From a virus, in IMG/VR virus record IMGVR_UViG_3300048928_000471, positions 1 through 45,516 of that record: a stretch of DNA of 45,516 nucleotides. One strand, 5' to 3'. Positions 2,642 to 38,155 of this stretch are shown in pieces (position 1 is the stretch's first letter; each line of letters opens with the position of its first letter). The notes beneath the pieces are model-generated. The model was given only the letters and a program-made list of their open reading frames with translations. It had not been told where the DNA came from and searched no databases. Position numbers and translations under genes: made by a program.

Positions 2642-3049
2642 TTAATCCCCGATCACTCCATATTCGCCCATCCATCCATATTTTTTGCACACTTTCGGGT
2701 TGGGTGTGTCGCCGACGATTTCTGCACGACCATCGTCAAATGCCCTAATATAAATGCCCGCGCTACCTAGCTTTCCGTGATAACTCGTTTGGCCATGGAT
2801 AGTGTCGACGTGAACTTTTACGCTGAGTTTCGTCGAGCAAAGCACCTTATTCGCGTCCATTCTGTCTGCAACCACATGCCGACCGACGAAGCCTTTTCCC
2901 GACTTCTTGAACTCGAACCAGCATTGTGTTTTTTCTGATTTTGAGCACGTGCCGCTGCTTGCATACTCTCCGATCAAATCAGCAAAAGCTGACGTCGCAC
3001 TGAAGCATACGACGGCGAAAGCGAGGGTGAGAGTAATCTGTTTCTTCAT
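2642..3049 (-). CDS. Small exported protein inside the integration operon
   Basis: 135 residues with a clear Sec signal peptide (MKKQITLTLAFAVVCFSATSAFA, cleavage near residue 23). The mature part is small, has five cysteines and is probably a periplasmic beta-rich domain. The start overlaps the stop of the zinc ribbon gene as ATGA, with AAGGAA upstream, so the genes are coupled. The motif 'GEYASSGTCSKSEKTQCWFEF' (given in part) resembles small secreted proteins of unknown function in Proteobacteria. An exported protein between replication and integration genes is odd; expression in the lysogen could give superinfection exclusion or another host trait. Function unknown. Confidence 0.75.
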   Translation of the reverse strand: MKKQITLTLAFAVVCFSATSAFADLIGEYASSGTCSKSEKTQCWFEFKKSGKGFVGRHVVADRMDANKVLCSTKLSVKVHVDTIHGQTSYHGKLGSAGIYIRAFDDGRAEIVGDTPNPKVCKKYGWMGEYGVIGD

Positions 3050-3252
3050 TCGGTTTCCTTTTTCTTTTTGAGATGTCCGAAGACGTCGTTCATCAAAATT
3101 TCACGCATGCTACGGGGATCATTGGCAGTGCAATTATTGTGATACCAGCTGTCTGAACGCCCGCAGTTCGGGCATACTTTAGGAGCTTTGCCTTTGCCCT
3201 CGGTGTCGCACTCAGTGCAGAGCCATCGCCATTTTCTCTTAAGCGCATTCAT
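3046..3252 (-). CDS. Zinc-ribbon protein
   Basis: 68 residues beginning MNALKRKWRW. It carries CTEC and, after a short loop, CPNCGRS, a four-cysteine zinc ribbon resembling rubredoxin-like or RNA polymerase ribbon modules, then a basic Lys-rich tail. GAGGAG lies about 8 bases before the ATG. The start lies inside the 3' end of the AAA+ protease gene and the stop overlaps the next gene, so it is translationally coupled on both sides. It could be an adaptor or substrate of the protease, or a nucleic acid binder. Confidence 0.65.
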   Translation of the reverse strand: MNALKRKWRWLCTECDTEGKGKAPKVCPNCGRSDSWYHNNCTANDPRSMREILMNDVFGHLKKKKETE

Positions 3253-5314
3253 AAAAAGACTCCTCATAGATGTCGTCTGGCCGCTCTTGCATCCGAGATA
3301 GCAGTCGAATTTTCGGCTTCGGAGCGAGCAGATTTGAGATGTCTTCACCTGAAATCTCGCCGCGTTCGATGAGTGCGTCGGCGATTTTTCGGACGTCTGA
3401 GTGACGTCTTTTGATGATAAGCTTCACTTCTTTCATGCACGACTGCAGCTCTTCCTCGACTTTTTTCTGGACGTCCGAACGCAGCTTTAAAACTTGAAGA
3501 ACTGACTTTGCATCAGGGTCAGAAAGATACGTGAGAGCGTCCTTCTGACCCGTCGAAATCCATTGTCGAGCAGACCACCACGTAGCCTCCTTCAAGTCGG
3601 CCCATCCGCCGTCGTTGCGCTGACCGAACAACTCATCTTCAGCTGCCAGACCACCGAGAAGTTGCAGGATCATTTCGCGGCTATATGTCGTTGAGCGCGA
3701 ATATTTATTGTCATTTCCACGCTCAACAGACACCGATCCGCCTTCAAACAACTGATCAGCGACTTCAACAACTTCGAGCGTCACTTTTGCAGAAAGCACC
3801 GTTCTGCCGAGTTCGAGAGCGACCACGGCATGCCCAGCTTCATGAATAGCATTCATTTCCAGCGCAGCCGCAGGCATCTTGCTTCTCTTCGGCAGCGCTT
3901 GCATCAAATCATCGACTTCCATTTCCCGCCGCTGTCTGCGAGCAAAGCGACGTCCATCGCGTACAACGGCCTCCAACCACGCGCCCGACATGCCTTCTGT
4001 TCGCGCTGCAACAGGCGACAAATCGGCATCCAGCAGATCACCCTTCAGATGAAAACGCAAAATTCCCTCGCGCGCTTTCGCATCGGGCATCGGAATTTCA
4101 ACGAGTTTATCCATTCTCCCAGGGCGGCAGAGTGCGGCGTCGATTTTTTCGGGATGGTTCGTAGCTCCAACAACAACGATGCCCTCGCGCCCCGACACGC
4201 CGTCCAGGCACTCTAGAAGTCCGTTTACTGCTCGGCGAACGTAATCATCATGGTCAGACGACTTGGAGTTGCGGTCTCCCGCACTGTCAAACTCATCAAT
4301 AAATAGGATGCAGGGAGCCGCTTTTTGAGCTTCTTCGAAAGAGCGTCGCATGGCTTTCAGGTAGTCCCCCAAATGCCCTTTAGCTTGCCATTGAGACATC
4401 GACGTCGCGATAAACTTCACGCCGCATGTGCGAGCAAGAGCGCCAGCAAAGGTTGTTTTACCGGTGCCCGGAGCGCCGCTTACAAGAATGCCCTTATCAA
4501 CTTCAGACCAGCTAATTTTTCCAGCTTTCCAGTCAGCCAGATCAAGCGCGAGGTCGCGCCCCCAGTCGCCAGCAGCTCCGAGTCCGTGAAGATCGTCGAG
4601 CGTTGGACCCGAGTTTTTTCCTTCGCGGGCTGAAGTCTGGACGTCGCGCTCGGATGAAGATAACCACTTCTTCAGCAGCTTCATGCTGTCATCGACTTTT
4701 CGCTTATCGCTGAACCCCGAAATCAACTGAGAGACCGGGATTTCCAGCAAAAACGCGTATCTTTCGCTGAAAGAAAAATCTTCGGCGATGAATTTTTTGA
4801 TAGCGCTTTCCAGCGCATCAGGCGTCAACGAGAGATGCACTTCTGCGTCTACAAACCCCGACAGACTGTTAGAGATTTTAGTGTCTGCGAGCGTGAAAAT
4901 GAAAATACGACGGAACTCGAAAACTTTTTCGAGAGCATCTTTTTCAGTATGCTTTGTGAGGTAAACTTCACCGTCGAGAACGCACGAAGATCCTGGCTTT
5001 CCGCTTTTGAATTTTTGGCGATAGCTGCCTTCGAGGATGTTTTCGAGTGCTGCCATATACAAATTCTTGTCGGCGATGTCTGCGCAACGGACCAGCAGAA
5101 TGCAGGCTTTTTCTGAATCAAAATACGAGCGCGCAGAGCTATGCGATGCCGCGTTTCTTACGCAGTCGGTGAAAATCTCGTACGGCAACCCGATTTTGAA
5201 GCTAGAGATTACCGGGTCGACATGACCGTCATCAGATTTGTCATCGCCGTTCAAAAAATCTTCAATAGTTTCAAACTGATGGTCGTTGTGTTGGTCTTTT
5301 CCTTCCGTGCTCAT
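3239..5314 (-). CDS. Soluble FtsH-like AAA+ ATPase fused to an M41-type zinc protease
   Basis: 691 residues from the ATG at 5314 (AAGGAG about 6 bases upstream). Residues 1-260 form an unrecognised N-terminal domain without membrane segments. The AAA+ module follows: Walker A GAPGTGKT at about 280-287, Walker B ILFIDEFD, and the second region of homology GATNHPEKIDAALCRPGRMDK (two arginine fingers). The C-terminal part has HEAGH at 491-495 (zinc motif HExxH) and GGWADLKEAT, where the Asp near 573 corresponds to the third zinc ligand of FtsH. Host FtsH is anchored by two N-terminal membrane helices; this protein lacks them, so it should act in the cytoplasm. A phage-encoded processive protease could degrade a repressor, a replication protein or host factors. 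Catalytic residues look intact. Substrate unknown. Confidence 0.88.
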   Translation of the reverse strand: MSTEGKDQHNDHQFETIEDFLNGDDKSDDGHVDPVISSFKIGLPYEIFTDCVRNAASHSSARSYFDSEKACILLVRCADIADKNLYMAALENILEGSYRQKFKSGKPGSSCVLDGEVYLTKHTEKDALEKVFEFRRIFIFTLADTKISNSLSGFVDAEVHLSLTPDALESAIKKFIAEDFSFSERYAFLLEIPVSQLISGFSDKRKVDDSMKLLKKWLSSSERDVQTSAREGKNSGPTLDDLHGLGAAGDWGRDLALDLADWKAGKISWSEVDKGILVSGAPGTGKTTFAGALARTCGVKFIATSMSQWQAKGHLGDYLKAMRRSFEEAQKAAPCILFIDEFDSAGDRNSKSSDHDDYVRRAVNGLLECLDGVSGREGIVVVGATNHPEKIDAALCRPGRMDKLVEIPMPDAKAREGILRFHLKGDLLDADLSPVAARTEGMSGAWLEAVVRDGRRFARRQRREMEVDDLMQALPKRSKMPAAALEMNAIHEAGHAVVALELGRTVLSAKVTLEVVEVADQLFEGGSVSVERGNDNKYSRSTTYSREMILQLLGGLAAEDELFGQRNDGGWADLKEATWWSARQWISTGQKDALTYLSDPDAKSVLQVLKLRSDVQKKVEEELQSCMKEVKLIIKRRHSDVRKIADALIERGEISGEDISNLLAPKPKIRLLSRMQERPDDIYEESFYECA

Positions 5315-5404
5315 GGTTTCTCCTTGTAAATATGAGCGCTCAAACCCGAATTTTCGGGGAGCAGGCATGCGTAGTAATGTGAGAATTGGTGGCGACGGCC
5401 GAGA

Positions 5405-5959
5405 TCAGGCCGCTGCAAAGGTCCGAAGACCAGGCAGGCAGGCTTTCAAATGCTGAAAAGTGCGCGGTGTAAAAGCGACATCATCCAGATCAACGCCGAC
5501 GTCGCGCGAGTTACCGACATGCGGTAGCGTACCGTGCGAGTGCCCGTAAAAATGGTACGAACCCTTATTGCTCGCAGGCCACGTGCGGTGTGCGTAGTGC
5601 GACAGATAAAGCCGCTCACAACAGTCAGTTGTTAGCAGTGCAGGTGTCGGAGCTTGATCCCATGCGAGATCATCCAGATAATCGAGAACACGACCATCAC
5701 GGTCGATGTCATGATTGCCGAGAACAAGGATTTTGCGGCCATTCAGACGTCGGAAAATGGCTTTGGCATGCGCTGCGCCGCCGAAGGAAAAATCACCCAA
5801 ATGGTAGATAATGTCAGTTGGCCGAACGACAGAGTTCCAAGCATCAACAAGGAAGTCGTCCATTTCGCGAACTGATGAAAAAGGGCGGTTGCAGAGGCCG
5901 ATGATTGCCTCATGCCCGAAGTGCGTGTCAGCAATATAATGCTTTTGAACGTAAGTCAT
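5405..5959 (-). CDS. Small calcineurin-like metallophosphoesterase
   Basis: 184 residues with every signature of the metallophosphoesterase fold in order: DTH (11-13), GDF (55-57), GNHD (81-84), a central SHYAHRTW and a late GHSH. This matches short phage phosphoesterases that act on phosphodiesters or phosphorylated nucleotides or polynucleotide ends. The ATG at 5959 has AAGGAACC upstream. It lies between the initiator-associated gene and the AAA+ protease on the same strand, suggesting a role in DNA metabolism after induction. Substrate cannot be predicted. Confidence 0.88.
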   Translation of the reverse strand: MTYVQKHYIADTHFGHEAIIGLCNRPFSSVREMDDFLVDAWNSVVRPTDIIYHLGDFSFGGAAHAKAIFRRLNGRKILVLGNHDIDRDGRVLDYLDDLAWDQAPTPALLTTDCCERLYLSHYAHRTWPASNKGSYHFYGHSHGTLPHVGNSRDVGVDLDDVAFTPRTFQHLKACLPGLRTFAAA

Positions 5960-6121: not shown

Positions 6122-6823
6122 CTAGGATCTATTTCCTAAGTCAAGCAGCTTTTCGACCGTCCCGATTGGATGGACGCCAGAACGAAGGCCTAGGGCCATC
6201 TCTATTAACGCTTCTTCACGCATCTCTACAGATATGCGATCCCATAGTTCCAGCGGCAACGATGGTGGGCATTCGACTTCTATTAGCAAGGCTTCTTCAC
6301 TCACCACGTTGAGGCGGACGTCGCGTCTGTCATCAAAATTCTTGTCAACGATGTCGCTCTCAAAAATCTGCTTGTGAACGCCTTTATACGCAAGAACGGT
6401 TTCACACTGGCGGATCAAATTGACAGGATTTCCGCGAAGCAGGCAGACACCAATTGAACGCCACCAAGGCGGAAAATGCGGGTTTTCTGCTACGATTGTG
6501 AAGGCTTTCGAGATCAACCCGTTAAGCGCATCGTCGGCTCTTTTGATATGTGGCCAAGTGTCTAAACCATCAACAAAACGACGCTTTACCCACCCGCGAT
6601 CAGACGTCGGCTGCACGAAGCTGAGATCGCGGTAGAAAACGTTCGCGGCGTCTTTGAAGCCTTCAGTCGTCATGAACATCAAGTTTGCTGGCACGTTGGT
6701 CAGGTCGACCTGTGGCACGGTCGGCGCAACAGGTTTTGCGACCGGAGCCTTTTTCAAAGTTGGTGTCTTTGGCTGTTTAACAACGGGTTTTCTGTAAAAA
6801 GGGGAAAATGGCAGTTCACTCAT
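6122..6823 (-). CDS. Hypothetical protein coupled to the Rep initiator
   Basis: 233 residues. A Pro/Lys-rich low-complexity N-terminus (about 1-40, with repeated KP and AP) precedes a globular domain with conserved-looking segments such as DRGWVKRRFVDGLDTWPHIKRADD. The start overlaps the rep stop as ATGA, so it is almost certainly co-translated with rep. A basic disordered tail followed by a folded domain suits a replication accessory such as a helicase loader. I do not recognise a family, so the role is inferred from position. Confidence 0.6.
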   Translation of the reverse strand: MSELPFSPFYRKPVVKQPKTPTLKKAPVAKPVAPTVPQVDLTNVPANLMFMTTEGFKDAANVFYRDLSFVQPTSDRGWVKRRFVDGLDTWPHIKRADDALNGLISKAFTIVAENPHFPPWWRSIGVCLLRGNPVNLIRQCETVLAYKGVHKQIFESDIVDKNFDDRRDVRLNVVSEEALLIEVECPPSLPLELWDRISVEMREEALIEMALGLRSGVHPIGTVEKLLDLGNRS

Positions 6824-8559
6824 TTCAGGTACTCCAGTTCGTTTAGTTCATCGTCGATGTTAACTCCGATGTTTTTTGTGATTGCTTCGATGTCGGATTG
6901 GCAAACGTTATATGTGCCGAAAGAGAACTCTTTCACGCAGCCGTCTACCCATGCGCGCACGGTCAATTCGATAGAATGTGGACCGTCCGTTTCTATTTGA
7001 AAAGCTGGCCAAATTTCGTTTTCGAGCTCTTCTGGGGATAGGCTTCTGTCAGCCGTCCAAATGATTTCGCGGACGCCTTCTAATGTTACATTTTCCCCCA
7101 GATCAGGCTCTTGGGAATCGTTTGTAACACGGTCTGAAATTAGGTCTTCGAGCATATCCACCGCGACGTCTGACATTTCTACGATGCCAGCTTCTTCAAA
7201 AGCTGACGTCTCGATTTTCGCAGCGACAGGCTTTGCAGATGGTCGAGCGAACGAGTGCTTGCCGTATTTTAAAGTGAGCGCAACTGACCGATTTTGGGCG
7301 TTACGTTCACCATTAAAGAACGCTTTTGACGTCCGGACGTGGTTTCGTACTTCAATGCGTGATTTTCTAGCGTTTTCGGCTTCCGTGGCATCAACCGTCA
7401 AATCAGGCGATGCGGCTTCCAAAAGATCAGGATTGTCGACTTCTTCGGCGCAAAATTTGAATGCGGCTTCATCAGTGCCGAGATCAGAAATAGCATTGAG
7501 CAAGCGCTGGCCGCGATACTGTCTCTGGGTGTAGCCAGGCGATACTGCATCTTCAGCTATTGCTTCCTGAAGTGCCACCTGCCAAGCCTTGAAATAGACA
7601 TCGTGCTGGCGCTTCTGGATAGTCCAGAACTCGTTTTGAGCCTTCACCCAAATGTGGCTGTTTACGCGATACTGGTCAGCATCCACACCGCCGATACCAC
7701 GCTTATTGTGCTCGTCTTTTTTGAAAGCAGGCGTTTTTACGAGGTGATGTGAAGGCGGCAAAATTCCAAGGCGGAATTCAATTTTTTCAACCGGACGTCC
7801 ACGTCCAGTGCCGTAGTGCTCACGAAATGACACGGTGAAAGCACGCAGATTTTTCATGTCGATGTCGACATATTTCAGCACACGGTCGCGCAGGCGGGAC
7901 ATAGAAATTTTGCCATTCTCAGGCTCGAAACCAGACCATGCAGCGACGTCTTCCGGTGTGCCGGACAAGAGGACTTCATTTTTACCGCCAGCCGTCCATT
8001 TTACCTTGGAAGCCTCCAGAGCCAGCTTCTTATAGAGCCTGCTGCTATATGCCGATTTCATGGAAGAGAGAGCCGCCAGCTCGATATATGCGTAGCTTGG
8101 CATACGGCGCATCAGTTCGCGCACGGGCGGCGGAAAACCGAAAGACACGACGTCATTCTTATCAGTGCATTCCAACCAGCTGATGATAAGCGGAAGTTGC
8201 TCGTAGTTCCCGAAATCCATGGTCGTAGCATTGAGACGCTTTAGCGCTGCTTTCAAAGCTGGGCGACGAGCGGATGTTCCGAGAAATTTCAGGATGTTTG
8301 CTACTGACACTGCAACAGTCGGCGTACTGAGCTGCTGATCTGCTTCATATGCTGCCGAGAGTAAAAACTCATAGATAGAGATATCAGCGGCTGACAGAGC
8401 AGTGTCTGAAACCATAGAGACACCGTCTAGCAGAACTGACGGACGAGGCGATGCTGGTGCAATTTTCGACAACGCATGCTTCTGAATAGATATCGCAAGG
8501 GAACCGCGATGACGCGGTCTAAAGAATTTTTTTGATGATGTAGATGATAAGATAGTCAT
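6820..8559 (-). CDS. Plasmid-type Rep_3-like replication initiator
   Basis: 579 residues. Residues about 50-270 follow the Rep_3 (RepA/RepE/pi-type tandem winged-helix initiator) pattern: a first winged helix with LSAADISIYEFLL, then SSRLYKKLAL, DVAAWSGFEPENGKISMSRLRDRVL and a Gly/Arg loop GTGRGRPVEKIEFRL. A C-terminal extension of about 300 residues is unlike short plasmid Rep proteins and may recruit host or phage helicase. Iterons lie immediately upstream. A 19-bp operator ends 9 bases before the ATG, and no good ribosome binding site is seen, so expression is probably tightly controlled. It is the only recognisable DNA replication protein in the prophage, so it likely starts lytic replication at the adjacent origin. 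Confidence 0.78.
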   Translation of the reverse strand: MTILSSTSSKKFFRPRHRGSLAISIQKHALSKIAPASPRPSVLLDGVSMVSDTALSAADISIYEFLLSAAYEADQQLSTPTVAVSVANILKFLGTSARRPALKAALKRLNATTMDFGNYEQLPLIISWLECTDKNDVVSFGFPPPVRELMRRMPSYAYIELAALSSMKSAYSSRLYKKLALEASKVKWTAGGKNEVLLSGTPEDVAAWSGFEPENGKISMSRLRDRVLKYVDIDMKNLRAFTVSFREHYGTGRGRPVEKIEFRLGILPPSHHLVKTPAFKKDEHNKRGIGGVDADQYRVNSHIWVKAQNEFWTIQKRQHDVYFKAWQVALQEAIAEDAVSPGYTQRQYRGQRLLNAISDLGTDEAAFKFCAEEVDNPDLLEAASPDLTVDATEAENARKSRIEVRNHVRTSKAFFNGERNAQNRSVALTLKYGKHSFARPSAKPVAAKIETSAFEEAGIVEMSDVAVDMLEDLISDRVTNDSQEPDLGENVTLEGVREIIWTADRSLSPEELENEIWPAFQIETDGPHSIELTVRAWVDGCVKEFSFGTYNVCQSDIEAITKNIGVNIDDELNELEYLK

Positions 8560-8586: not shown

Positions 8587-8613
8587 CAAGTATCTTTCCA
8601 TCGGCGAAAATAA

Positions 8614-8923
8614 GTCAAATCCTTTTCGACCGCTGAGATTAAATAGAGCGGGTTTAAAACCGCTGATAATATTTCCAGCGGTTGAAAAGATTGTTGACGG
8701 AATAGTTGAATTCTTTTCAACCGCTGAGATGAAAGTGACCGGACGAAAAGATTGTTGACTTGTGTTATCTGTAGTCGGTCAACACTTTTGATTTCGACCG
8801 CTCTAAATATTTTCAGCGGTCGAAAAGAATGTTGATGGAAGTTCTGTTTAAAACCGCTGAAAAAATTGTCAGCGGTTGAAGACGTGCCATTTACGTTATC
8901 GAGCGGTCGAAAAGATTGTTGAC
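8614..8923. repeat. Iteron cluster, putative replication origin
   Basis: A 310-bp stretch upstream of rep holds many copies of a 22-base unit, AGCGGTYGAAAAGATTGTTG plus AC. Forward copies: 8677-8698, 8738-8759 (degenerate start), 8815-8836, 8871-8884 (partial), 8902-8923. Inverted copies: 8614-8634, 8705-8725, 8778-8802, with ACCGCT half-sites near 8657 and 8852. Several forward and inverted copies face each other, for example TTTCGACCGCT (8792-8802) with AGCGGTCGAAA (8815-8825). Iterons beside a Rep_3 gene mark a replication origin or a Rep autoregulatory site. No clear DnaA box was seen. Direct observation for the repeats; origin function is inference. Confidence 0.8.
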
Positions 8924-14348: not shown

Positions 14349-15230
14349 ATGTCAGGCGATAGTCGCAGTAAGCAACACCATTATTTACCTAAGACATTTC
14401 AAAAGTCATTCACCGTTGACGGGATGGGAACGCAAGTTTTCTTCTCTGAGAGAGGTGAGGGCGGCTTGTATGGTGATCCCGTTATCAGAAATATAAAAAC
14501 AACTTTTAAAAAGAAAGATTTGTATACAATTAGTGTCGAGGGAAAGAAATCGGATATACTTGAGAGGGAATATTACGGTCCTATCGATGAAAATTTAAGC
14601 AAAATAATTCCTTACTTAAATGAAGAATTAACTAAAAACCGTATTCCAGTGATTACTGCAGACACTTCGAATAAATTGAAAATTTTGGTGATAGAGATGT
14701 TGAAGCGTACACCAGAATTCGGAAATTGTGAAAGCTACAGTGATGTAGGGAGGAATACAGTTTTAGAGGCTATAAATGATTTATCTAAAAGTGCGTCAGA
14801 TGAAATTATAAGAAATCTAAATAATATGTTGAAGGACTCCAATCTGACGGATCTTATTGGTAAAGACATCATTGCTAAAGCTAAAACACTACCCATGACT
14901 TTAGTTGATGATGTTCTAAAGAATTATAATATTAGGTGGGTTAGAACGGAAGGCAAGTCCTCGTTTATTTTGTCCAGCCTTTGTTGTTATCGTATTGGAA
15001 ACGGAGGCTCAAATGGCTTGTCCAGTATGAGTGCAGAAGTATGGATGCCTATTTCGCCGAAAAACTGTTTGGTTCTAATACGAGATCCGAATAAGCAAGT
15101 TCCTTTAATATCATTTGTTAATAGCGATAAAGTTAATCAGGTGAATGAGCATGCTGCTACTTATAGCAAGCAAATAGCTTCACACTCAAAAGCCTTATTA
15201 GAAGCTGTTATTAAACGTTTGAATAAGTAA
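14349..15230 (+). CDS. DUF4238-like protein (cargo)
   Basis: 293 residues. The N-terminus (KQHHYLPKTFQKSFTVDGMG), the segment ILEREYYGPIDENLSKII and the late EVWMPISPKNCLVLIRD match the pattern of the DUF4238 family, whose members start with an HHYxP-like motif and end with a 'mPlsp...l.l' strand. No signal peptide or membrane segment. Markedly AT-rich, with no GACGTC, so it looks horizontally acquired relative to the phage backbone. DUF4238 proteins are common solitary accessory genes; an antiphage or other lysogen function is speculative. No obvious ribosome binding site. Confidence 0.7.
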   Translation: MSGDSRSKQHHYLPKTFQKSFTVDGMGTQVFFSERGEGGLYGDPVIRNIKTTFKKKDLYTISVEGKKSDILEREYYGPIDENLSKIIPYLNEELTKNRIPVITADTSNKLKILVIEMLKRTPEFGNCESYSDVGRNTVLEAINDLSKSASDEIIRNLNNMLKDSNLTDLIGKDIIAKAKTLPMTLVDDVLKNYNIRWVRTEGKSSFILSSLCCYRIGNGGSNGLSSMSAEVWMPISPKNCLVLIRDPNKQVPLISFVNSDKVNQVNEHAATYSKQIASHSKALLEAVIKRLNK

Positions 15231-35228: not shown

Positions 35229-35900
35229 TTGACTGCGGCACCGGAAAAAATTGCGCTAATCGTGCATTCTGATGAATTTTTCCGCATAGCGCTAAGAGTC
35301 ATTTTAAATCAAAAGCATGGAATAAAAGAAGTTGTAGAGAAGGCACGAACTGCGCAATTCCGGCCAATTTTTAGGACATACGGCGAGAGAATGGCCGTCG
35401 TTATTGTCGATGAAAAGTGCGTTTCTCCTGAAAATGTAGCTCTTTTATGCGAAGAATTCCCTCATGCAAAATTTGCGATAATCGCGGATAATGGGTCAGA
35501 TTCAGCTGCGTTATCATTCCTATCGGCAGACGCAAGAGCTTATATATCTCGTAAAGCTGGTGCAAATATCATGTCTCATGGCATCGGCCAAGCTATCGCA
35601 GGAAAAACGTTCAAACGACATCTACCGCTCTCATTCGCTGAAGAAGTTTCAGACAATGAAGCCGACGTCGCTGAAAATCATAATGAAGCTATTGAATATC
35701 GGCTTGAAAAATACGGGCTTTCTGCGCGTCAAATGGAAGTATGGAAATGCTTATCACGCGGTCAGACTTCAAAGCTCATAGCTCGCGAAATTAATATTGC
35801 TGAGGGCACCGTCAAAATTCACTTGAAGGCCCTTTATAAAAATTTAGGCGTAAAAAACGGGAAGGCAGCTGCGGCGCTTGGAGCTACCGTTTTTAAGTAA
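35229..35900 (+). CDS. LuxR/NarL-type transcription regulator with receiver-like domain
   Basis: 223 residues from a TTG start (GGGGGAA upstream). The N-terminal half resembles a response-regulator receiver: IALIVHSDEFFRIAL with an acidic residue, AVVIVDEKC with a candidate phosphoacceptor Asp, and ISRKAG with the conserved Lys. The C-terminal HTH is typical GerE: LSARQMEVWKCLSRGQTSKLIAREI, TVKIHLKALYKNLGV. Phage-encoded LuxR-type regulators are uncommon. It lies after the tail genes and may control lysis or lysogeny, possibly by binding the 19-bp palindromes; there is no direct evidence. The receiver may be degenerate. Confidence 0.8.
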   Translation: MTAAPEKIALIVHSDEFFRIALRVILNQKHGIKEVVEKARTAQFRPIFRTYGERMAVVIVDEKCVSPENVALLCEEFPHAKFAIIADNGSDSAALSFLSADARAYISRKAGANIMSHGIGQAIAGKTFKRHLPLSFAEEVSDNEADVAENHNEAIEYRLEKYGLSARQMEVWKCLSRGQTSKLIAREINIAEGTVKIHLKALYKNLGVKNGKAAAALGATVFK

Positions 35901-36223: not shown

Positions 36224-36304
36224 AGCTCTCATTTTGATCAGATGCATTAAAGCGTTGTCAACAAAGTGTTTTGCAAGTCATTGTTTTAATTGCAAAAAAG
36301 TTCT

Positions 36305-36323
36305 TGTATTAATGATCAATACA
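36305..36323. promoter_or_regulatory. Operator copy B upstream of the A1-like gene
   Basis: TGTATTA-ATGAT-CAATACA lies about 39 bases before the start codon of the 36362 gene, where it would overlap a promoter. Same 19-bp palindrome as the sites upstream of rep and the right-end early genes. Confidence 0.8.
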
Positions 36324-36361
36324 TACCGAAAATAAGCTTGTCACTGTGGAAAGGAAAAAAC

Positions 36362-38155
36362 ATGACAAGCAAAACGAACAAGAAAATCAAAGAATTCATC
36401 AATCGCGAACTCGACGGTCAGTTGGACATCGAAAAATATATCGCTGAACAGGACACCGTCGAAGACAAAGCGGTCGCACTTTTTCAAATCGGAGTGCCAA
36501 TCACTGCGGTCGCTGAGTTTCTCGGACTTACATACTACGGAAGCCGAAAAATCTGGCTCACGATGAATGAGCCACGCACGTTGCCGCGACGTCCGAAAAC
36601 AGCAACAGAAGCCGTCGAAAAAATCTGGCCTTCCAAAGCACCTGAAACACCCGCCAACGACGAAAAACCAGCTAAAAAACAGCGTCCACGCATTTCTGAG
36701 TTGCCGACGATCAATGCAATGTTGGAACTCGGCACCGTGCATCGCTTTCTAATTTCCAGCGCTCAGGATGACACCCCGGTACATGCCGATTTCCTGAAGA
36801 ATATGGAAGCGTACGCAGGCCATATTGGTGCGAGCATTTTGATCGGCGGGCACACGTATCAGCTCGGGCTATTTGACGATCATGCCGCCGACGCAAATGT
36901 TTATGCGAATGAGCTGTCGCCATACCTCTGTCACGAGCGCGTGCAGTTGACGTCCGAAGTGCTTTATCTCGGAAGCGCGAACATTTTGCCGACGACTGCG
37001 AACCCTCTCAACGGATGGCTCACGCAAAATCACGGCGGTCATGTTGTCGTTCCTCATAGCCGTATTGCACTTCAGTCCATTCCCCGTCTGCAGGGGCAGG
37101 AGCCGAGGTTTGCGATCTCGACAGGCACAGTAACGATGCCCAACTACACGGCCAGAGCGGCTGGGCAGAAGAGCATTTTTCATCACACTTTTGGTTTCAC
37201 TGTTGTCGAAATCGATGCTGACGGTGAGGTCTTCATGAGACCTGTTTCGGCATCAGATGATGGCAGCTTCCAAGATCTGAACACGTTCGTCCAGGACGGC
37301 GAATGCTTCGCCGATCAGCGCGTACGAGCCATCACTTGGGGCGATATCCATCATGAGCAGCTAGACCCGACTATTGCAGCGGCCAGCTTCGGATATGACA
37401 CGAAAACGAAGACCAATCTCGACAACATAAACATTTTGGACGGTCTTCAGCCGGAAGTGCAATTCTTCCACGATACGATGGATTTTAGACGCCGAAATCA
37501 CCATAATTTAGCTGATCCTCATGTAATGGCTCTGGTAAACGCGTCTGGCTCGGAGAACGTTGAATCCGAGGTTCAGGAAGCCAGCGATTTTATTGCAGCA
37601 TGCACACGTGATTGGTGCAAAACGGTAATGGTGGAGTCTAATCACGACAACGCATTATCTCGCTGGCTGAAGAATCCGGAGGGCGCTGCCGACGTCGAAA
37701 ATGCTTATTTTTGGCACGAACTCAACGCTGCTTGGCACAAAGCTATAAGGGCTGGAAACGGCAGCTTCAATGCGGTCGAATATGCAATGAGAAGGGCTAA
37801 TCTGCCCGACAGCGTCGAGTTTGTGGCGGCTGGTCAAGGGTATCAAGTTGATGACGTCGAATGTGGTCTCCACGGTGATCTTGGCATCTCTGGCTCACGA
37901 GGTTCACCGAACCAATTTAAGCGATTTGGCGTGCGCACTTCGACAGGTCACACGCACACGCCATCGATTTCGGAAGGTGCCTATGTCGCGGGTGTGAGCG
38001 CCAAATTGGATCAAGGATACAACAAAGGGCCGACAACGTGGGCGCACGCGCATATTGTCCAGTATCACAATGGAAAGCGCACCATTTTGTTGATGTCTTC
38101 ACACGGCCGCTGCCAAGCAATGGGCGACTGTCTGCCGATGCAGATGGCTGCTTGA
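36362..38155 (+). CDS. Large metallophosphoesterase-like protein, phage T5 A1-like
   Basis: 597 residues from the ATG at 36362 (AAGGA upstream). Residues about 1-130 hold an HTH-like segment (FQIGVPITAVAEFLGLTYYGSRK) and a basic linker. The rest carries metallophosphoesterase signatures in order: WGDIHHEQLD (D-x-H), MVESNHDNALSRWL (NHD), a central GLHGDLG and GHTHTPS near the end. The family resembles the A1 pre-early protein of T5, which takes part in host DNA degradation and DNA transfer. The resemblance is by motif and memory, so treat A1-like as tentative. An operator 39 bases upstream suggests early-type control although the gene lies in the late region. Confidence 0.65.
   Translation: MTSKTNKKIKEFINRELDGQLDIEKYIAEQDTVEDKAVALFQIGVPITAVAEFLGLTYYGSRKIWLTMNEPRTLPRRPKTATEAVEKIWPSKAPETPANDEKPAKKQRPRISELPTINAMLELGTVHRFLISSAQDDTPVHADFLKNMEAYAGHIGASILIGGHTYQLGLFDDHAADANVYANELSPYLCHERVQLTSEVLYLGSANILPTTANPLNGWLTQNHGGHVVVPHSRIALQSIPRLQGQEPRFAISTGTVTMPNYTARAAGQKSIFHHTFGFTVVEIDADGEVFMRPVSASDDGSFQDLNTFVQDGECFADQRVRAITWGDIHHEQLDPTIAAASFGYDTKTKTNLDNINILDGLQPEVQFFHDTMDFRRRNHHNLADPHVMALVNASGSENVESEVQEASDFIAACTRDWCKTVMVESNHDNALSRWLKNPEGAADVENAYFWHELNAAWHKAIRAGNGSFNAVEYAMRRANLPDSVEFVAAGQGYQVDDVECGLHGDLGISGSRGSPNQFKRFGVRTSTGHTHTPSISEGAYVAGVSAKLDQGYNKGPTTWAHAHIVQYHNGKRTILLMSSHGRCQAMGDCLPMQMAA

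Follow-up and report, generated by a model that had tools for sequence, protein, structure and literature searches.

The window, which is the whole 45,516-nucleotide stretch of viral DNA analysed here (IMG/VR virus record IMGVR_UViG_3300048928_000471, positions 1 to 45,516), encodes a soluble AAA+/M41 protease on its minus strand. In line with the original prediction, the gene calls of the window place the protease gene on the same strand as genes for a replication initiator (rep), a metallophosphoesterase and a zinc-ribbon protein, in a genuine tailed phage. The record carries a GpA terminase, a Phage_cap_E capsid protein and an amidase, together with a tyrosine integrase. GpA terminase is also present in 10 of 12 related viral records, and these phage genes rule out a misfiled plasmid or host contig. 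The features of the rep-protease region are as follows.

8613..8923, strand not assigned: iteron-like repeats upstream of rep, ACCGCTGA...TCAGCGGT, in which a 46-nt repeat occurs 5 times alongside inverted repeats
6820..8559, minus strand: Rep3-like replication initiator (Rep3_N E 1.3e-8, above its cut-off)
6122..6823, minus strand: putative 233-aa ORF between rep and the phosphoesterase, overlapping the end of rep
5405..5959, minus strand: metallophosphoesterase, 184 aa, the partner gene (phrog_547, E 3.2e-42)
5320..5325, minus strand: Shine-Dalgarno sequence (AAGGAG) of the protease, 6 nt before its ATG
3239..5314, minus strand: soluble AAA+/M41 protease gene, 691 aa (ORF call; ATG at 5314)
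3046..3252, minus strand: zinc-ribbon protein, 68 aa (DZR E 9e-4, under its cut-off), overlapping the 3' end of the protease gene with its start

The protease ORF is a real gene. Between two of its relatives, which are 92% identical to each other, dN/dS is 0.10, and the protease gene is thus under purifying selection. The zinc ribbon is conserved in the window's clade, with relatives directly after the protease in loci L002, L091 and L092. Scans for promoters and terminators in the window gave nothing above chance. The iteron-like repeats are predicted to be a plasmid-type origin, in this case within an integrase-bearing phage.

Domains of the protease and its relationship to FtsH

The protease is laid out as follows, all on the minus strand.

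4607..5212, minus strand: N-terminal domain, residues 35-236, fast-evolving and read as a degenerate AAA+-like module without Walker A (model pTM 0.77, Foldseek)
4031..4606, minus strand: AAA+ core, residues 237-428 (Pfam AAA E 4.5e-33)
4454..4477, minus strand: Walker A GAPGTGKT, residues 280-287 (sequence motif)
4364..4378, minus strand: pore-loop 1 GHLGD, residues 313-317, replacing the FVG region of FtsH
4292..4309, minus strand: Walker B ILFIDE, residues 336-341 (sequence motif)
4115..4126, minus strand: RPGR, arginine-finger region, residues 397-400 (sequence motif)
3875..4030, minus strand: AAA lid, residues 429-480 (AAA_lid_3 E 1.6e-4, under its cut-off)
3320..3874, minus strand: M41 peptidase domain, residues 481-665 (Peptidase_M41 E 9.2e-13; predicted FtsH fold)
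3830..3844, minus strand: HEAGH zinc site, residues 491-495 (HExGH in 36/36 relatives)
3596..3598, minus strand: Asp573, third zinc ligand (invariant in 36 relatives)

The Pfam AAA match spans residues 276-408, and Peptidase_M41 (PF01434) matches residues 486-661 with 48.9 bits against a cut-off of 29.9; PF01434 was also detected in a search at the level of the whole record. With PF01434 above its cut-off, HExxH plus a third-ligand Asp, and an AAA+ module in front, the protein belongs to peptidase family M41. The prediction of intact catalytic residues held up, as HEAGH, Asp573, both Walker motifs and RPGR are all in place. His491, Glu492, Gly494, His495 and Asp573 are invariant in the alignment of 36 relatives, which rules out a pseudo-protease and any loss of the catalytic residues of FtsH.

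A review (PMC9020784) describes FtsH (M41) proteases as enzymes anchored in the membrane. We looked for a membrane helix before Walker A by Kyte-Doolittle analysis and found none in the protease, in agreement with the original prediction: the highest 19-residue mean is 1.07, and the maxima of the soluble group all lie below 1.8, against 2.1-3.6 for the classical FtsH proteins recovered alongside them. The FVG pore-loop Phe aligns with H in 23 of 36 soluble proteins, with Y in 9, with S in 3 and with A in the remaining one, the loop being mostly HLG. Against NCBIfam FtsH_fam (TIGR01241) the protease scores 199.5 bits, far from the cut-off of 600. In a maximum-likelihood tree, 49 soluble sequences form a fully supported group apart from classical FtsH, and the window falls together with L002, L091 and L092 at 99% (SH-aLRT, quick search). 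Viral and host sequences are intermingled on this tree, which requires at least 7 changes between them.

AlphaFold (36 sequences) modelled the protease with mean pLDDT 84 and pTM 0.54; with such a pTM despite the high pLDDT, the single domains are more reliable than their mutual arrangement. Foldseek searches of the PDB with this model returned FtsH-type and m/i-AAA proteases throughout, with E down to 6e-27 (2ce7, E=1.9e-26) and TM-scores up to 0.75, normalised to the FtsH chains. The AAA-M41 part is accordingly modelled with the FtsH cytosolic fold, and a fold without M41 was not obtained.

The original identification as FtsH-like thus gained a predicted fold, but the plain name FtsH is too specific. 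What the protease shares with FtsH, m-AAA and i-AAA proteases is the AAA-lid-M41 domain order, the Walker motifs, HExGH with its third-ligand Asp and the predicted fold (2ce7 and other FtsH chains). It differs in having no membrane helix, a degenerate AAA-like N-terminal domain, a replaced FVG, the low family score (199 bits vs 600) and its separate clade. A plain FtsH xenolog is ruled out by the missing helix, the pore loop, the NCBIfam cut-off and the tree, and by these sequence criteria the protease is a member of a separate soluble clade rather than FtsH proper. A literature search, with most subscription journals outside its reach, turned up no article about a soluble FtsH from phages or about the pairing of this protease with a phosphoesterase.

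The first 237 residues modelled alone gave a pTM of 0.77. Nearly all top PDB matches of this stretch in Foldseek are AAA+/STAND proteins (ORC, DnaA, RFC, TRIP13, Msp1, p97), each of them weak (best E=3.9e-3), and an hhalign comparison with the protein's own AAA domain was likewise weak (P=0.012). From the fold search we read the N-terminal domain as a degenerate AAA+ module that has no Walker A. Within the window's clade its identity is 28-32%, against 73-79% for the AAA part, making it the fastest-changing part of the protein. It had been described as a unique domain of 260 residues; it has about 200 structured residues (35-236) and is common to the family.

FtsH-type proteases had also been called rare in phages, and they turn out to be not very rare: the soluble kind is present in 14 IMG/VR records, the window included, and the Pseudomonas jumbo phage PA5oct has a classical copy. 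The PA5oct protein is likewise a phage-encoded AAA-M41 protein, but its membrane helix is strong (Kyte-Doolittle 3.21), its pore loop is FVG and its score is that of classical FtsH. The best PHROG match of the window's protease, phrog_30773 (E 2.9e-51), spans AAA and M41 without the N-terminal domain and is annotated as unknown function. One record named Microcystis phage MaAM05 (L151, MW495066.1), with hospital wastewater as its stated source, has ftsH beside glgX, proS and lepA; it looks bacterial, so its FtsH is not to be counted as phage-encoded.

In a split subfamily (L042, L043, L044, L045, L048-L053, L055 and L105), an AAA core with a long N-terminus and an AAA-lid+M41 part are encoded by two neighbouring genes. 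The break falls at one shared site, the core/lid boundary at about profile position 193, and some of these loci have a gap of several hundred bases between the two genes.

Phosphoesterase linkage and gene neighbourhoods

The catalytic Asp, His and Asn residues of the window's phosphoesterase are invariant. Of 50 fused soluble loci, 25 have a same-strand metallophosphoesterase beside the protease or within 0.7 kb of it, while the 72 other loci, which fall outside the soluble group, have none. By source the 25 are 12/14 viral and 13/36 bacterial loci, the bacterial count including L017, whose phosphoesterase is only a 60-codon fragment. The phosphoesterase is upstream of the protease in the window, L002, L091, L092, L093, L096 and L035, and downstream in the other linked loci. 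Phosphoesterases make up 16 of the 113 genes directly beside the protease vs 2 of 742 further away (P 4e-13, a value that overstates the number of independent cases because related loci were counted separately). On the tree, the trait requires at least 10 changes, and two phosphoesterase types are paired with the protease, on either side of it. Protease and phosphoesterase are thus a conserved gene pair in unrelated backgrounds.

A scan with the window's phosphoesterase found 15 viral loci at 49-79% identity, all of them with a rep gene; several are on contigs already found via the protease, so that the two counts overlap. The protease is present in 8 of these loci, between rep and the phosphoesterase in 5 and after the phosphoesterase in 3, and is absent from the other 7. 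Rep and phosphoesterase therefore form the core of this cassette and the protease is accessory. Since the phage phosphoesterase accompanies rep even where there is no protease, part of the linkage may be an inherited neighbourhood. In the late region of the window, a second ORF (36290-38155) has phosphoesterase-like motifs by eye (WGDIHHE, SNHDN, GHTH) and no Pfam match.

Among the Rhizobiales relatives, a conserved protein of about 200 residues is encoded directly ahead of the protease in 19 loci (e.g. L006:4062-4658), and a member of the DUF6634 family precedes it in 10, in 2 of which the family was named by Pfam. The C-terminal half of the ~200-residue protein looks like a winged helix by eye. 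This protein has no Pfam match and no PDB sequence match, and a TnsA-like identity, suspected by eye, is unsupported by either.

PADLOC was run on 124 neighbouring proteins from 37 loci and reported a CBASS cyclase with NucC, KwaB, IetS, QatA, GajA with GajB, DRT2 and a type III restriction enzyme. The Rhizobiales relatives are thereby placed amid CBASS, IetS, Kiwa, Gabija, Qat and type III RM. Plasmid annotation near the relatives likewise lists CBASS and Kiwa genes, together with an S8 peptidase gene next to that of an ATP-binding protein. As a control, 109 proteins from four 35-kb stretches, on replicons of the same set, gave generic matches only (mad3, mad8, HTH, exonuclease). The defence context of the bacterial relatives is strong, but with a control of four stretches, and with some island matches (restriction enzyme, methyltransferase) being common genes, it is not a measured rate; it concerns the bacterial relatives and not the phage clade. 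No PADLOC model covers the protease itself: matches are confined to the AAA region of IetA and TRIP13, plus one mad8 P-loop.

In L011, L012, L023 and L038, the AAA-M41 gene is followed, at a distance of about 1.4 kb, by a TnsB/TniA-like transposase gene. Pfam finds rve and Mu-transpos_C in the L023 protein, with which the other three cluster by blastp, and TniB-like proteins are among the scanned neighbours.

Possible roles in phages and bacteria

By homology, the protein would act as a soluble, cytosolic, ATP-dependent zinc metalloprotease, in which a hexameric AAA+ ring unfolds the substrate and passes it to the M41 sites. The fast-evolving degenerate AAA+ domain, which stands in place of a membrane anchor, probably selects the substrate. 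In phages the protease is an optional addition to the rep-phosphoesterase replication cassette, and it may act in conflict between mobile elements, either jointly with the phosphoesterase or alongside it. Its most likely target would be a protein made by a phage or plasmid in competition with its carrier, the protease then serving as an immunity gene of a prophage or defence island.

The position of the bacterial relatives among defence genes suggests such a weapon in conflicts between mobile elements. The comparative evidence as a whole favours a role in mobile-element conflict and weakens a role as an essential replication gene, because about half of the related rep-phosphoesterase cassettes (7/15) do without the protease. 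We put the probability that this is an accessory soluble protease destroying a protein of a competing element at roughly 0.4. The points in favour are the predicted FtsH fold, the invariant catalytic residues, the lack of a membrane helix, the phosphoesterase linkage, the optional presence in phages, the defence neighbours in bacteria and the fast-changing N-terminal domain.

More tentatively, protease and phosphoesterase might together be an undescribed conflict system of temperate phages and Alphaproteobacteria defence islands, a metalloprotease counterpart of IetAS in which the pseudo-AAA domain chooses the target. In IetAS, too, an AAA ATPase (IetA) is coupled to a protease, the subtilisin-like IetS. 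The AAA part of the phage protease has IetA as its best PADLOC match (E 1.2e-27), and IetS occurs near one relative, L007. The phage protein differs in that an M41 metalloprotease is fused to the AAA module and there is no IetS-type peptidase. If the proposal is right, an anchor-free M41 clade on phages and plasmids, with its phosphoesterase linkage, would put the FtsH machine to a new use, and the pair would be a candidate immunity or counter-defence module.

It is rather unlikely that the protease instead serves counter-defence, being made early in infection with the phosphoesterase and clearing the way for phage replication by destroying a defence protein of the host. The phage copies do sit in the rep-phosphoesterase block, and accessory presence with a fast-evolving N-terminal domain fits an arms race. 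The window's phosphoesterase can be likened, by description, to Gp48 of mycobacteriophage A10ZJ24, an early metallophosphoesterase with phosphodiesterase activity and a counter-defence role, for which the accessible part of the report mentions no protease partner (PMC12287305). However, the bacterial relatives lie inside defence islands, where a destroyer of defence proteins is unexpected.

Degradation of the phage's own Rep or repressor, setting copy number or the choice between lysis and lysogeny, we consider unlikely. The protease shares strand and block with an iteron-type rep gene, and the FtsH of the host governs the lambda decision through degradation of CII (PMC1838920); against this, the protease is missing from the 7 related cassettes noted above, and the majority of bacterial relatives have no rep gene next to them. 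A tandem AAA machine that acts as an unfoldase or remodeller of proteins or protein-DNA complexes, with proteolysis playing a minor part, would fit the resemblance of the N-terminal domain to the AAA+ modules of ORC, DnaA, RFC and TRIP13 and the separate genes for AAA core and lid-M41 part in at least 12 relatives, but is very improbable given that none of the 36 aligned fused proteins departs from HExGH or Asp573, which is unexpected if cleavage is unimportant.

Elsewhere in the window, a LuxR-type HTH protein (35229-35900; GerE E 2.6e-13) is encoded amid the late genes, and a DUF4238 protein (14349-15230; E 6.3e-19), possibly an accessory gene product, is encoded upstream of the terminase genes.
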